Part shown: positions 17,868-38,436 of the stretch, one piece after another | How the letters are laid out: every line of letters starts with the position of its first letter | How positions within the stretch are numbered: the stretch's first letter is position 1 | Assembly (NCBI GenBank): GCA_026770025.1 | Contig: JAMXDE010000011.1 | Span: 1,116,001-1,180,000 of the forward strand | DNA from: Craspedostauros australis | Lineage: Eukaryota; Bacillariophyta; Bacillariophyceae; Mastogloiales; Achnanthaceae | Length of the DNA: 64,000 bases | Direction of reading: 5' to 3' | Made by a program: the position numbers and the translations under genes | The notes under the pieces: generated by a model | Database searches by the model: none | Told to the model about the DNA's origin: nothing | Seen by the model: the letters and a program-made list of their open reading frames with translations, nothing else

Positions 17868-18015
17868 CTACAGTTCTGCCACCTCATAACGACCGTGGAT
17901 ATAATACTGCGACAGCAAGATGGTGTCTGCGAGCAGGGTGCTGTAGAAGAAGCAAAGGAAGTAGAAGAACCATCGCTTGTTGTGGCGTCCGATTGGCCCA
18001 CCCGTCCATGGACAC
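17868..18015 (-). other. Alternative terminal exon 3b of the DHTC acyltransferase
   Basis: After a consensus acceptor (AACGCAG|GTGTCC) the frame encodes CPWTGGPIGRHNKRWFFYF, then a hydrophobic stretch and YYIHGRYEVAEL before TAG. IGxxN and the aromatic WFFYF match the canonical sequence that follows DHHC in this family. It shares the 12 bases TGTCCATGGACR with exon 3a but is otherwise diverged, so the exon duplication is old. Confidence 0.75.
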
Positions 18016-19995
18016 CTGCGTTTGTGCATGTATGTTTATTACATATGTACGCGTGAGCCGAGCGTCCATGAAGTGTGCCGTGCGGTTGCGTGCCGTGCAG
18101 TTTTGCAGGAGTGTCGGCGTTTTGGGGTGAGATTGATTGTGGATATGTCGTCGTTTCGTCATAGTGGAACGGCGATAGGCCCATGCCGAAGTACTCTTAC
18201 GTTGCCGCATGATGGACCAGAAGAACTGGTTTACTCCCAATTTCGCAGACCGCCAGTCAGCAGAATGATGTTGAACATGAGGCAGAAGAAAACCAGACCA
18301 ACGAAACATTTGAATGCCGGCATGTTCTTCTTCCCGATGGCTGTTCCTGTCCATGGACAACTACGCATCGCGGGAGTGCGATAATCAGTTTGTTGGCACC
18401 GTCAGCGATTGATGTCAAACATCGGACAACCAGAGAGTCGAACGACCCATGTATCAGCCAATCCAATTGGCAGAAAACGTGAGAGCCGGTAAAGCAGTCG
18501 AATCGGATAACATCAAGCAGATCAGATGCGGTGCATTCATGTGTGTATTTTCTTTCACATTGTCGTGGAGTCCATGCATCCATCGATGTATGTGTGCAAC
18601 AAAATGCATCATTGCGAGACAAGCAACGTCTCCACGATGCTCAGCCATTGGATTGCTTCAATTACCTTTCAGGCACATGATATCCCAGCGTGCAACTTCG
18701 ATCCAAAGTGCGAGTTCTATTTGGAGAGCATGGGCACACAAGTAGGCACAGGAACGATGATAACCAGACCATGCATGCACGCGCTCATATCAAAGGCAGC
18801 TTGTGCAACTTACGTGTGATCAAACTCCTCGACGATAACTCCAGTATCCGGGTCGTAGTACGCGCCCCTTGGCTTGAAGGAATAGGTACGGTCGCTCCAT
18901 CTCCATTGGTCATTGCTGTGCGGTGGAAGTTCCACGTATCGCGGCAAAATGCCTGGGTCTCTGAATGCCGTCATGGCCAGAGCGTAGATCAGTCCCAACG
19001 TGGTGCACCCCCAAAGCAGCTGAACGAATGGGTTCGTCTTGGGAATAACGGTGACCAAGGCAAGGCCGGAGACACCCAGGATTAACGGATACGTAATGCA
19101 GAGCAGCATGGGCCAGTACTGCGATATAGAGTTGCATTCGGTTGGCATGTGGGGCATGACAGAGTCCAGTAGAGCAGCGCAGTGCAGTGCGTACGTTCAT
19201 GGGGCATAGGCATGAAGTGTCAGGTGAGAGGTGCAGTCACATGCGGGTGTGTACCAGATTCGTATAATACGTTTGTACGTTAGCATTGTTTGCAGATGTA
19301 GTTGCGATTGAGTGAAGCACAGGAGGAACGAAGGGACGAAGGAATGAATGTGCACAAAGTTGAAGAGTCAGTTCATGATCGCGACATGCCGATGTGAATA
19401 GATATTGGCAGAGAGTAGCAGAGCAGAGGGGAGTAAAGGACAGTACTCTATTGCGTTCTCCAACACAGCAATGCTCCGATCGAACGATGCAACTCACCGG
19501 CCCGATAACGATGTCCAATTTGGGGCGCTTGTATCGTCGCACGGATGGTTCGCTCCCATCTCCATTGTCCACGACCTCCTCCACAACCTCCATGGACTGC
19601 TTGAGTACGGCCATGTGACCAACTCGTTCCGCACCGATTATGCCGCAGCACACCACGGAGCAGCAATCGCAGGGGCCTGCGTCCGTTCGCGTGGAATCCA
19701 TGCACTGGCGGTAGGGGTCGGCGCGGAACTTGGCGTACTCCGACTTCCACGACTCATCCTGCATGGAAGAGGCGAAGGGTCCGTCCATCCAGTTCTGCTG
19801 CTTGGCGTTGAGGGTTTCGCTGTTGTACCGTTCCTCCAACGAGACCCCCGTCGACGCACCTCCAGCGGAACTTGCGGAAGGAGGAGCGGAAGGCCGTGGT
19901 CTGCCTGGTGCGTTCCCGGTCTCCAGTGTCTCGCTGAATGGCACCATCTCCTCGGCATCCTTCTGGGAGCCAGCCACGGCACGTCGTTGCGGCAT
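17868..19995 (-). CDS. DHHC-like S-acyltransferase with DHTC motif and alternative last exons
   Basis: Exon 1 (19995-19498), exon 2 (19118-18814), then either exon 3a (18360-18231) or exon 3b (18015-17868), all with GT-AG borders. Exon 2 ends in phase 2 (GATCACAC|GTAAGT). 3a supplies T and 3b supplies G, so both give Thr and then CPWTG. Products are 310 or 316 aa. The layout is a roughly 145-residue cytosolic N part with a Cys-rich patch (CDCCSVVCCG), two hydrophobic segments (from GPYWPMLLCITYPL and LLWGCTTLGLIYALA), a DPG motif (FRDPGILPR), the loop with FDHT-CPWTG at 266-273, and a final hydrophobic segment. The family transfers palmitate to cysteines using D-H-x-C. Here the cysteines and histidines of the usual zinc-binding domain before the motif are missing. 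A paralog lies at 36020-37213. Confidence 0.85.
18231..18360 (-). other. Alternative terminal exon 3a of the DHTC acyltransferase
   Basis: After a consensus acceptor (GATGCGTAG|TTGTCC) the frame encodes CPWTGTAIGKKNMPAFKCF, then a hydrophobic segment (VGLVFFCLMFNIILL) and TGGLRNWE before TAA. This version is closest to the intronless paralog, which reads CPWTGTAIGEANMFWF. Confidence 0.8.
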
Positions 19996-33959: not shown

Positions 33960-35192
33960 TCACGTGTACAGAACCAAAAAGAACAACACGAACGCCGTCA
34001 GGCTGAGTGCCAGTATCGTCCGCAGCTGCCACTTGTCCTTGGTTTTGAGGAATTTGCCCAACTTGCCCATGACGAGTCCCAGCTCCTCTTCTGCGTTGGT
34101 CATGTCCTCGTCGATCTGTTCCAGCAGTTCATTTTGTTGCTCGATCTCGTCATGTATGTTCTCCGCCATCTCTCCGACGCGCGTGACGACATCACCAAGT
34201 TCATCCAGCGTCTCATCCTGCTGCTGGAACATGACGGAGGCCTGCGCCTGGTTGTTGAGAACGAAATTCGTGTTCATCCTCTGCTCATCCGTCTTGGCGC
34301 CCAGAATGCCATCGCCGTTGCCGTTGCGACGTATCGCGAGATTCCTTTGATCCAGCAGCAGCTTCTCCTTGACAATGTCCGAGTTCATCTCCTGCTTGCA
34401 CTTGGCGAGGCGTTCCTGCGATGTTTCGCAGAAGGTTTTGCGGTCGTAGAGCTGGGAATCATCGATGTGAGGGAATTTGGAACGGTCATTCTCCACCAGC
34501 TGCACCGTCATGCGCACATCGCGCAAGTTGGATTCTGCGTTCTTGAGATGCCGCTTCAGCAGCTTCTTCGCTTCCTTGAGTTCGTGCGTGTTGACGGCCG
34601 TGTCCTGTGCATTTCATTCATTCGATGGTTCAATTCAAAAAGGATTCATCGTGTTGTGATATGTGTGTGTGTGTGCGTTTGGCATCATCGATTGGAGGAT
34701 AGAGAAACAGCAATTAAGTATAGCAACAAGTGTGAGACGTGTACTGCAGATGCTGACGCTGATGCCAATCACTTTGTTGCTTCCGCTGCTCATCTGTTCA
34801 CGCTGGCCTCAAGCAAGCAACCAGTCAAACAAGAAGACGGAGCAGCTCCAATGACGCTGCGGACTTACGGTGTCATTGACTATCCGGATGTACTCGAAGA
34901 GCGTTTCATCCAAACTCTCCAGCTTGCGCTGCAGATCCGATCGGAACATGAAGTAAGGATCGTTGGCCAACTCTTCATCCATCGACGATGGTGCCACCTC
35001 GAGAGCCGTGAGGGGCTGGCTCAGGTCCGAGTTGGAACCGGTCCGCCTGTGCGATCGTCGGAACTTGCTGGAGATGGAGGCAGCGACGGTGCTTTCCGAT
35101 TCCACATCGGCCGGTTTGCTGCGCAAGGAGCAGCTGTGTAGCGACGCATTGTCGCTGTCATCGACGCCGGAGTATTGCACGGACGATGACAT
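33960..35192 (-). CDS. Syntaxin-6-type Qc-SNARE
   Basis: Exons 35192-34869 and 34604-33960 join in phase 0 across a 264-nt intron (GACACC|GTAAGT, GCACAG|GACACG), giving 322 aa. Residues 1-75 are Ser-rich and disordered. The N-terminal three-helix domain starts DPYFMFRSDLQRKLESLDET, crosses the splice junction at IRIVNDT-DTAVNTHELKEA and runs to DDSQLYDRKTFCETSQERL, as in syntaxin 6/10 and Tlg1. The SNARE motif is MFQQQDETLDELGDVVTRVG through ELLEQIDEDMTNAEEELGLV, with glutamine at the zero layer. A C-terminal anchor follows (LRTILALSLTAFVLFFLVLY). These SNAREs fuse vesicles between trans-Golgi network and endosomes. The ATG chosen is the first that keeps the acidic, Ser-rich start. Confidence 0.92.
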
Positions 35193-36019: not shown

Positions 36020-37213
36020 TCAAGCGACGTGGATGATGATCGTGAGAGTGATGGAGGCCGGCACCATGGTGGTAAAGATGCGGAACCAGAACATGTTGGC
36101 TTCGCCGATGGCCGTGCCGGTCCATGGACATGTGTGATCGAATCCTTCAATGACGACGCCGCACTCCGGATCGAACCGGGCATCCGTGGGACGGTAGGTC
36201 TGGGCCTGATCATTCCACCTCCAGTTGTCGGCATCTGCAACTTGCGCGGACGCGGGACGTTCGTTGTGTCGATACATCACGCCCGGGTTGCGGAAGGAGA
36301 TCATGCACAGGGAGAGCAGCATGAGGATGACGGAGCTGGCCCAGATGACGACGAGAGCGATGTGCTCATCGTCCGCCTTGGTCTCGAATGTCCAGTACGA
36401 GATGCCGATGATCAACGGGAACGTGACGAACAAGTTCATCCACCAGTACGGGCCCAGCACGCAGAGCAATCGGGGGCGTTTCTTGCGCATCGTGGTGACT
36501 TGGCCGGTCTCCGGATCGGTGGTGACATGATCGTACGCCTCCTGACGACGCGCGCAGACGACCAAATTTCCAACCCGGCCGGCACAGCTGCAGAAGTAGG
36601 CAGAGAGGCAGATCGAGGTTTTCCCGGTGTCGGAAAACTGTCGTTGCATCTGTCCTGTGCTTCCGCAGCACAATTCGGACAGCGGTATGCGGTCGTCCGC
36701 CCAACGCACGCTGACGAGACCCACCGCGAAGGGACTTTCCTTCCAATGCTTTTCTTTCAGGGCTTCTCGAGCCTCCTGTTCTGTCTCGTTGTTGGCATTC
36801 CCTTCACTGATACCTCCGGCACGGTTGCGGCGACTGTTGCTGCTGCTATTTCCATTGGCATTGCTGTTGCCATTGCGATCAGCGTTGCCATCGTCGTCGC
36901 CAAGTTGGCGCGGAAGACCGATCCTGCGGTTCTGCAAGCGAAGCGGCCTTGTGTCTGATGAGAACTGCTCTTCAAGCGATTCCATCTCTATGTTGGCGCG
37001 AACGTTTGATGACTTCTTCCGTTCTTGCTGTCGTTGATGTTGTTGCACTTGTGTTTGCGTTTGCCCAGTGGTTGGTGTCGCCGTCTCAGGGTTACGCGCA
37101 GATGCTGAAGCGCCTTCAGGGCCACGATGGTGTTGGTCAGGAGGCACACCAGAAGCCAACGCAGACTGCGTTGTTGTCGTTGTCTTTGTCGCTACTGGCT
37201 TCCTGATGGTCAT
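36020..37213 (-). CDS. DHHC-like S-acyltransferase with DHTC motif, intronless paralog
   Basis: Single exon, 397 aa from the ATG of MTIRKPVATK. The frame is open further upstream but enters the neighbouring divergent gene. Residues 1-155 are disordered (Gln/Asn/Ser-rich, with NGNSNANGNSSSNS). A conserved block follows with CGSTGQM, ICLSAYFCSCAGRVG and KKRPRLLCVLGPYWWMNLF. Two hydrophobic segments come next, then FRNPGVMYR in place of the family's DPG, FDPECGVVIEG, and FDHTCPWTGTAIGEANMFWF with D-H-T-C at 359-362. A short hydrophobic tail ends the protein. It aligns along its length with the gene at 17868-19995, including KRP-x-L-x5-GPYW before the first membrane segment and the loss of all expected zinc ligands. 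It is probably an endomembrane palmitoyltransferase or an inactive relative. Confidence 0.88.
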   Translation of the reverse strand: MTIRKPVATKTTTTTQSALASGVPPDQHHRGPEGASASARNPETATPTTGQTQTQVQQHQRQQERKKSSNVRANIEMESLEEQFSSDTRPLRLQNRRIGLPRQLGDDDGNADRNGNSNANGNSSSNSRRNRAGGISEGNANNETEQEAREALKEKHWKESPFAVGLVSVRWADDRIPLSELCCGSTGQMQRQFSDTGKTSICLSAYFCSCAGRVGNLVVCARRQEAYDHVTTDPETGQVTTMRKKRPRLLCVLGPYWWMNLFVTFPLIIGISYWTFETKADDEHIALVVIWASSVILMLLSLCMISFRNPGVMYRHNERPASAQVADADNWRWNDQAQTYRPTDARFDPECGVVIEGFDHTCPWTGTAIGEANMFWFRIFTTMVPASITLTIIIHVA

Positions 37214-37719
37214 CACTGTAGAGTATGAATGCAGATGGTGGTATCGATTTCGTGCAAGATGGAATAGAGTATTATGGCACTCCACAAGTCCTGGTATGGT
37301 GGTGCTGTCGCAGACATCGATCAGCAGAATTGTGTGCTCTCTTGCGCCAAGAGGGAAGGTCGAGAAGATTCCGTATCTGCTTCTGATTCTGTTTCTGTGC
37401 CATTTGGCTGGTGGTCTTGTTCGCGTTCTTGTGCGATCTCCACGATTCCGTCTCCTTCCACGATTTTGCCTCCGACTCGTGCGACAAACGAAGCGAGCGT
37501 TGGTTCGTTCGTGGATCTTGTTTCGGAATGTGGTGTCACGACTGCGTCCAACCACACAACAAAAGATACTCTCTGCGTGCTGTTCGTACTCACTGCTTCG
37601 AGAGTGGAAACATTGGGAAGAGGCAGTAAGTCTTATCCATGGTCGCACGACACAGACCAATCGTTGAAGCAAATCAACAGACGCAAGCAAGCAATCCGAT
37701 AGGGACAACGACAAGAACA

Positions 37720-38436
37720 ATGGCAGGCACATCCAGCACAGCCAGCGCAAGCACGGGAACAGCCGCAGCCTCAGGCGAGGATCCAAAGATGTCCATGATC
37801 CGAGCCTGGTTGGTGCTCACAAACCTCACCATCTCGGCATCATGGCTGCGCTCCTTCGTCACCATCGCTTCGACCGGCTGCCTCATGGCCATGCTGCCGT
37901 CCGTCGATGAGGCCCCCGTCGCCGCGATGTGCGTCAATGAAACGACCGCCGCCGTCACGTTCGCCCTCTGCAGCTCCTTCCTCGAGCTCTTCAACTGCCT
38001 CATGGGTTTCACCAAGAGCCCCCCGTTGGCCGTCCTCCTCTTCTCCTGCACGCGCATGGGCGTCGAACGGCTCGTCGCACCCATGATCCCGTGCACGTCA
38101 TGGCAGCACATCCTCACCATCGCGACGTGGAGCATCGGCGACACGATACGCTTCGGATGCTTCGCCATCGACGGGATGCTGCCGAATGGCAGTCACTTCG
38201 TCAAGAGCGTGCGTTTCACGGTCGGGCCCATTCTCTTTCCCATCGGGGCGTTGGCCGGCGAGATGATGATGGTCATCCTGGCGGGGCAGCTCAACAGCAA
38301 GCCCATCCTGTACGGCGCGGCGGCTCTGTGGCCGGTCTTCTTCTATCCCATGATGAAGCAGTTGCTGCGGCAACGCAAGAAGCACTTTGACAAGATCAGC
38401 GGCAAGGCCAAGACCAAGGAGATCAAGCGCGTGTGA
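37720..38436 (+). CDS. HACD/PTPLA-like protein (3-hydroxyacyl-CoA dehydratase family), divergent
   Basis: Single exon. I choose the ATG at 37720 (MAGTSSTASAST, 238 aa) because it follows an A/C-rich leader; an in-frame ATG at 37639 would add 27 residues. Several hydrophobic segments match the PTPLA fold, with SSFLELFNCLMGFTKSPPL, RMGVERLVAPMIP, WSIGDTIRFGCFAIDGML and VGPILFPIGALAGEMMMVI, and a basic ER-retention-like tail (KAKTKEIKRV). In the family (yeast Phs1, plant PAS2) the enzyme dehydrates 3-hydroxyacyl-CoA in very-long-chain fatty acid elongation at the ER, using a Tyr and a Glu in YPxGxxxE. Here the matching segment is FPIGALAGE, with Phe for Tyr and one extra residue, and WxxxE-IRY is GD-IRF. 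It may be a non-catalytic or altered paralog. Confidence 0.78.
   Translation: MAGTSSTASASTGTAAASGEDPKMSMIRAWLVLTNLTISASWLRSFVTIASTGCLMAMLPSVDEAPVAAMCVNETTAAVTFALCSSFLELFNCLMGFTKSPPLAVLLFSCTRMGVERLVAPMIPCTSWQHILTIATWSIGDTIRFGCFAIDGMLPNGSHFVKSVRFTVGPILFPIGALAGEMMMVILAGQLNSKPILYGAAALWPVFFYPMMKQLLRQRKKHFDKISGKAKTKEIKRV

Follow-up and report, generated by a model that had tools for sequence, protein, structure and literature searches.

A candidate pair of alternative catalytic last exons in a diatom gene for a divergent, putative S-acyltransferase

In the window, which means the whole stretch of DNA analysed (64,000 nt of contig JAMXDE010000011.1 from Craspedostauros australis), we found one gene that probably carries two alternative catalytic last exons. 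It would encode a divergent DHHC-type S-acyltransferase, and its intron 2 is placed within the catalytic motif (DHT|C). All parts of the gene lie on the minus strand:

19498..19995, minus strand: exon 1, 166 codons, ending in phase 0 at the donor CCG|GTGAGT
19119..19497, minus strand: intron 1, 379 nt, missing from the homologous protein P0001
18814..19118, minus strand: exon 2, with helices 1 and 2, the DPG motif and a cysteine-rich domain (CRD) without zinc ligands up to Asp-His-Thr
18808..18813, minus strand: shared donor GTAAGT of intron 2; when unspliced, ACG TAA reads Thr-stop (stop codon 18812-18810)
18361..18813, minus strand: short form of intron 2, 453 nt, to the TAG acceptor of exon 3b
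18231..18360, minus strand: terminal exon 3b, CPWTGTAIGKKNMPAFKCFVGLVFFCLMFNIILLTGGLRNWE, stop; acceptor TAG|TTGTCCATGG (TAG|TTGTCC)
18195..18200, minus strand: donor-like GTAAGA, 30 nt past the 3b stop, which might join 3b to 3c with 3c as a shared 3′ part
18035..18040, minus strand: AATAAA, 19 nt ahead of exon 3c, which may serve the 3b form as poly(A) signal
18016..18813, minus strand: long form of intron 2, 798 nt, to the CAG acceptor of exon 3c
17868..18015, minus strand: terminal exon 3c, CPWTGGPIGRHNKRWFFYFLCFFYSTLLADTILLSQYYIHGRYEVAEL, stop; acceptor CAG|GTGTCCATGG (CAG|GTGTCC)

Exon 2 ends in phase 2 at GATCACAC|GTAAGT (boundary 18814|18813). The Thr codon split at DHT|C is completed by both terminal exons, as ACT with 3b and as ACG with 3c. 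A sequence-only reading of this DNA had claimed two acceptors after the exon 2 donor, each followed in the same phase by a frame starting Thr-CPWTG. Both acceptors are present and the coordinates 17868-18360 are exact. Each exon also has, as claimed, the CPWTG with the catalytic Cys, an IGxxN, one hydrophobic helix and its own stop (18231 for 3b, 17868 for 3c). The predicted proteins are 310 residues long in the 3b form and 316 in the 3c form, and only 215 nt separate the 3b stop from exon 3c. A six-frame motif scan found no third catalytic copy within intron 2. By eye, the 3c acceptor has no pyrimidine tract; splice-site strength was assessed in this way throughout. The MMETSP protein P0001 has the same start as exon 1, and in it exon 1 is joined to exon 2. 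The domain layout of exon 2 was placed by comparison with the model of another homologue, P0002. The next gene downstream (about 17116-16160, minus strand) has a signal-peptide-like start and many PT/APT repeats, and by eye its product is a single-pass surface-type protein.

A chance origin of the motif in 3b and 3c was rejected by two controls. Across the genome (74.8 Mb in 90 contigs), a degenerate DNA pattern for CPWTGxxIG matched at four places and the reversed pattern at none. The four places were 3b, 3c, a paralogue at 36 kb in the window and one gene on contig C32, all within this family. Within the window, the same pattern had three matches, compared with none in 100 shuffles.

When a Pfam DHHC profile was run over the whole genome, 3c alone was matched with E 9.8e-4 (24.8 bits, under the curated cut-off of 28.7) and 3b by itself was absent from the matches. 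On a profile of 3b ends built from 59 homologues, exon 3b scored 121.5, compared with a leave-one-out mean of 120.8 (sd 13.4) for real 3b ends, and exon 3c scored 21.8. A genome search with the 3c end returned 3c itself and five weak matches (E 3.6e-4 or worse), none of them a further 3c. Four of these six places were also among the DHHC matches, and one was 3b. Codon use carried little weight for the coding status of either exon. Among 1150 stop-free comparison windows outside long ORFs, 8.7% scored as high as 3b and 5.3% as high as 3c for synonymous choice; for the full codon score, the proportions were 15.8% and 30%.

The product had been read as a DHHC-like acyltransferase. Family and fold agreed with this, but the protein is not a standard member. 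In Pfam PF01529 (DHHC), the 3b form scored 44.5 bits and the 3c form 46.9 bits, both above the curated cut-off. The best fold matches were ZDHHC9, ZDHHC5, Erf2 and DHHC20, so the DHHC fold was recovered, in a comparison with PDB structures that covered mainly residues 160-301 and barely touched the other parts. Compared with known DHHC/zDHHC enzymes (PF01529; ZDHHC9, ZDHHC5, ZDHHC20, yeast Erf2), however, the motif here is DHTC rather than DHHC: the Asp, the first His and the Cys are kept, and the second His is replaced by Thr. The same Thr was present in 68 homologues, which were selected for DHTCPW. Six positions, placed by alignment with ZDHHC5 and taken by us to be its zinc ligands, are also mostly replaced. 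The 68 rows have Asn/Ser, Ala/Thr, Tyr/Phe, Asp, Thr (45) or Cys (22) and Val/Ile, with one additional Cys at the second position, and this gene has S, T, Y, D, T and I. It thus appears to lack a zinc-binding cysteine-rich domain, which excerpts of one paper call a defining feature of zDHHC enzymes (PMC8059564).

The helices of the P0002 model occupy residues 163-184, 191-213 and 274-296 and the protein ends at 301. Similarly, both 3b and 3c terminate soon past the third hydrophobic stretch. Known zDHHC enzymes have four helices and a C-terminal TTxE and PaCCT, whereas the protein here stops after helix 3 and so lacks the fourth helix, TTxE and PaCCT. A further difference is that its catalytic Cys lies on what appear to be alternative terminal exons. 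Judged from these features, the gene product is a divergent three-helix DHHC-type relative without zinc ligands, a putative S-acyltransferase of diatoms.

We found 178 homologues, 120 of which were listed. The named relatives among the matches listed were diatoms (Nitzschia, Cylindrotheca, Fragilariopsis, Seminavis, Pseudo-nitzschia and Fistulifera; further names were incomplete). By regular expression, 61 of the 120 had a 3b-type end. Another 34 stopped at DHT and one at DHV, and the remaining 24 were read-throughs or fragments, several of them also with a 3b-type end. Because AC|GTAA reads Thr-stop, most of the 35 proteins that stop at DHT or DHV are probably genomic ORFs running into the donor. 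An intron at the corresponding codon (DHL|C) is also present in a paralogue on contig C32 (L019, G000:C32:422000-426500), which has DHLC and a single ending. Because of this shared codon, and of the 34 DHT and one DHV stops, the intron position before the catalytic Cys looks old.

The sequence-only reading had also pointed to an intronless paralogue with a single catalytic segment, which was confirmed:

36020..37732, minus strand: intronless paralogue with DHTC, open in one frame, with one catalytic segment and an end that has the 3b motif

Its real start is probably internal to the ORF, and its identity to this gene over exons 1 and 2 is 31% (82 of 262 aligned). It resembles an old retrocopy derived from spliced 3b-type mRNA. 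Near it, at 33960-34511 on the minus strand, is an ORF that by eye is SNARE-like, with a coiled region and a C-terminal membrane anchor.

A regular expression applied to thirteen DHHC loci of the genome detected a second catalytic segment at none of them. In the other DHHC genes, introns often fall within the motif or close to it, but at different codons. One DHHC-like locus, L029 (G000:C6:2397500-2400500, plus strand, about 1138-1365), apparently has its intron inside the catalytic Cys codon, with DHF followed by TG|GTGAGT ... AG|T CCG TGG. The DHHC genes at L023, L024, L025 and L030 also appear to be split in the motif or close to it, at codons other than this.

An apparent counterpart of the exon pair was found on a second contig. 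P0035 is a protein of 512 residues predicted on a 7.6-kb contig, with its introns read through. In its own frame it ends in CFWAGTCIGRKNK...DTMFIAQYWRSL (CFWAGTCIGRKNKGSFHLFLFCLYPLLIMDTMFIAQYWRSL), which is of the 3c type. A different frame of P0035 could encode a 3b end, with its Cys codon 148 nt upstream of that of the 3c end. The codons there allow a 3b match of 121 bits, whereas 100 shuffles averaged 19.7 (sd 6.4) and reached 39.6 at most. The most favourable synonymous codons were used for this score and for the shuffles alike; it measures compatibility, not an open frame, as P0035 was known from its protein alone. The order of exon types, 3b and then 3c, is the same as in the window.

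We aligned the segments after the motif. The window 3c and the P0035 3c scored 38 (shuffles 17.6, sd 5.6), and none of 500 shuffles was as high. Comparatively, the window 3c scored only 10 with the window 3b (323 of 500 shuffles as high) and 15 with the P0002 3b (121 of 500), and the P0035 3c scored 13 with the window 3b (177 of 500). Thus, a recent copying of 3b into 3c was rejected, as the two exons of the window showed no similarity above shuffles after the motif. The P0035 3c and the P0002 3b scored 29, a value equalled or exceeded in 4 of 500 shuffles. The separation of the two classes is therefore incomplete, and this score hints that they share an old origin.

In a tree of the constitutive part (93 rows), this gene, P0002, P0035 and P0015 formed one clade with support 98/94. 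Within it, the grouping of P0035, this gene and P0002 was unsure (98/26). P0002 is the nearest relative (70% over exons 1 and 2) and was observed with 3b only; P0035 is 57% identical to this gene over the same exons. Because P0035 has segments of both types in the order of the window and belongs to the shared clade, we consider it likelier that 3c represents an ancient class of exon than that it is a 3b copy in decay. On the simplest reading of these sequences, 3c predates the split of these lineages and has been retained since. It had been proposed that the same exon pair be looked for in related genomes. One contig, that of P0035, answered in its favour, but the sample is thin and the 3b frame there is compatible, not shown open. 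Profile scans of viral and genome contig collections gave no DNA of the relatives.

The evidence from RNA was uneven. Transcript-named homologues (MMETSP or CAMPEP) made up 12 of the 120 listed (P0001, P0002, P0018, P0021, P0028, P0030, P0040, P0074, P0088, P0094, P0117 and P0118), and other listed homologues may derive from transcripts without such names. Nine of the 12 had endings of the 3b type, P0001 and P0074 stopped at DHT, and P0117 was truncated earlier. None of the 12 had a 3c ending. Of the two proposed last exons, the use of 3c is putative. Among the matches listed (120 of the 178 homologues), a 3c end was absent from every spliced protein. A search aimed at the 3c end of the window gave no candidate, and it missed P0035 too. 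When the query included the 3c end of P0035 itself, P0035 and 23 proteins (E 2.3e-3 or worse) were returned. By eye, none of the 23, the 14 new proteins of this search included, had a 3c-type end. The search was word-based and required several exact five-residue words, so it would miss a diverged 3c but not very close relatives. P0123 has a short stretch, MDTILLLQ, in common with 3c, but it has the 3b-type TAIG.

The missing 3c transcript is the main weakness of an explanation by two endings, and it is possible that 3c is an idle but kept exon. In one rival reading, 3b is the sole working ending and 3c is the relic of an old exon duplication, lying in the 3′ UTR or spliced in by error. The 3b-type ends in about half of the listed homologues, the absence of a spliced 3c end from the same list and the searches aimed at 3c all agree with it. 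However, 3c has retained its open frame, catalytic Cys, IGxxN and in-phase acceptor, and P0035 has a matching counterpart although only 57% of exons 1 and 2 is identical. We regard a relic as unlikely.

The splice choice might also be arranged differently, with 3b as a stop-containing cassette. Form b would then be exon 2-3b-3c, with 3c as 3′ UTR and the donor at 18200, and form c would be exon 2-3c. The choice would be made by exon skipping, and form b could undergo nonsense-mediated decay. The GTAAGA beyond the 3b stop fits this arrangement, and excerpts of PMC5859163 describe frequent exon skipping in Phaeodactylum, affecting 2,444 genes. Nevertheless, GTAAGA is merely a six-base match, the AATAAA ahead of the 3c acceptor offers a simpler end, and transcripts of relatives show the 3b form. 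A cassette is thus rather improbable.

P0001 is identical to exons 1 and 2 of this gene and ends exactly at FDHT; it represents three member sequences, one of which was viewed. Therefore, an RNA that lacks intron 1 and apparently still contains intron 2 has been sequenced from the same or a very near species. The DHT-stop product of such retention was an outcome that the sequence-only reading had not foreseen. P0074 is a second MMETSP-named protein with a DHT stop, and retention at the intron 2 position may also occur in another diatom. According to excerpts of PMC5859163, about 24% of Phaeodactylum genes show intron retention. It could be supposed from these two transcript-named proteins and from that frequency that retention of intron 2 alone is the main control, an on/off switch for the catalytic Cys, and that 3c is of no weight. 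We think this very improbable: introns found in assembled transcripts may stem from RNA that had yet to be processed, and the keeping of 3c in two lineages would be left unexplained. Tandem gene copies can leave lone exons behind, but a second, partly lost tandem gene as the source of 3c was rejected as extremely unlikely, considering that exon 3c follows the 3b stop after just 215 nt and that P0035 has the same close order, with 148 nt between the Cys codons.

We prefer the reading of one gene with two alternative catalytic last exons, which would work as follows. Use of the near acceptor would give form b, the usual enzyme. Use of the far acceptor would give form c, with another helix 3 and another tail. 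Retention of intron 2 would give a two-helix protein without the catalytic Cys. The AATAAA at 18040-18035 would suit an arrangement in which 3′-end formation of form b competes with the splice to 3c. By ungapped count, the residue at +25 from the catalytic Cys is Cys in 3b, Thr in 3c and Leu in the 3c of P0035. This is presumably the place of Tyr181 in zDHHC20, if the Cys of that enzyme is residue 156, as we take it to be. In a solved DHHC enzyme, helix 3 contributes to the wall of the acyl-chain cavity. For this reason, forms b and c might prefer different acyl chains or substrates, or occupy different membrane locations, with the part from exons 1 and 2 unchanged. In excerpts of PMC8059564, the acyl cavity of zDHHC20 is formed by TM1-4 and Tyr181 limits the chain length. 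It is conceivable, though doubtful, that the intron in the catalytic motif acts as a three-way switch, with retention removing the catalytic Cys and each acceptor giving its own acyl pocket, and that this switch has been kept across diatom lineages and sets both activity and the choice of acyl chain or target.

Parts of this arrangement have parallels. As far as excerpts of the papers go, 3b and 3c resemble tandem duplicated mutually exclusive exons (reviews PMC9013439 and PMC9741552; Dscam1 and U2AF1 are examples) in being neighbouring, of the same phase, at the same protein position and related in motif. Unlike those exons, 3b and 3c are terminal, carry the catalytic nucleophile and are alike in motif only. 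Among the marks of duplicated exons, they have the same phase and the motif, but the window pair has no similarity after the motif above shuffles. Their exclusive use is putative. Animal zDHHC isoforms, namely the splice forms of ZDHHC7 (PMC5364179) and the long and short starts of ZDHHC20 (PMC10533364), are likewise S-acyltransferase isoforms, and those of ZDHHC20 differ in location and activity (excerpts of PMC10533364). In excerpts of the two papers (PMC5364179, PMC10533364), the longer form has added sequence, and a swap of the catalytic Cys together with helix 3 is not mentioned.

The sequence-only reading knew of no DHHC gene with duplicated catalytic terminal exons. In the titles and abstract starts of the open-licence PMC papers listed by our searches, nothing contradicted this, and no DHHC gene with mutually exclusive, alternative or terminal catalytic exons appeared there. 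By titles and abstract starts, none of the open-licence PMC papers listed dealt with diatom DHHC proteins or S-acylation either. Alternative duplicated exons and DHHC enzymes are known; the new element would be a catalytic Cys that, along with helix 3, can be exchanged through the last exon.

Exons that swap a catalytic residue together with a lipid-holding helix would be an unusual route to retune an enzyme. Should the cell produce both endings, a single gene would yield a natural enzyme pair differing only past the catalytic Cys, and this would be a clean system for finding what sets lipid choice in DHHC enzymes. It would also raise the question of whether a three-helix DHHC protein, with a CRD without zinc ligands, can be active.
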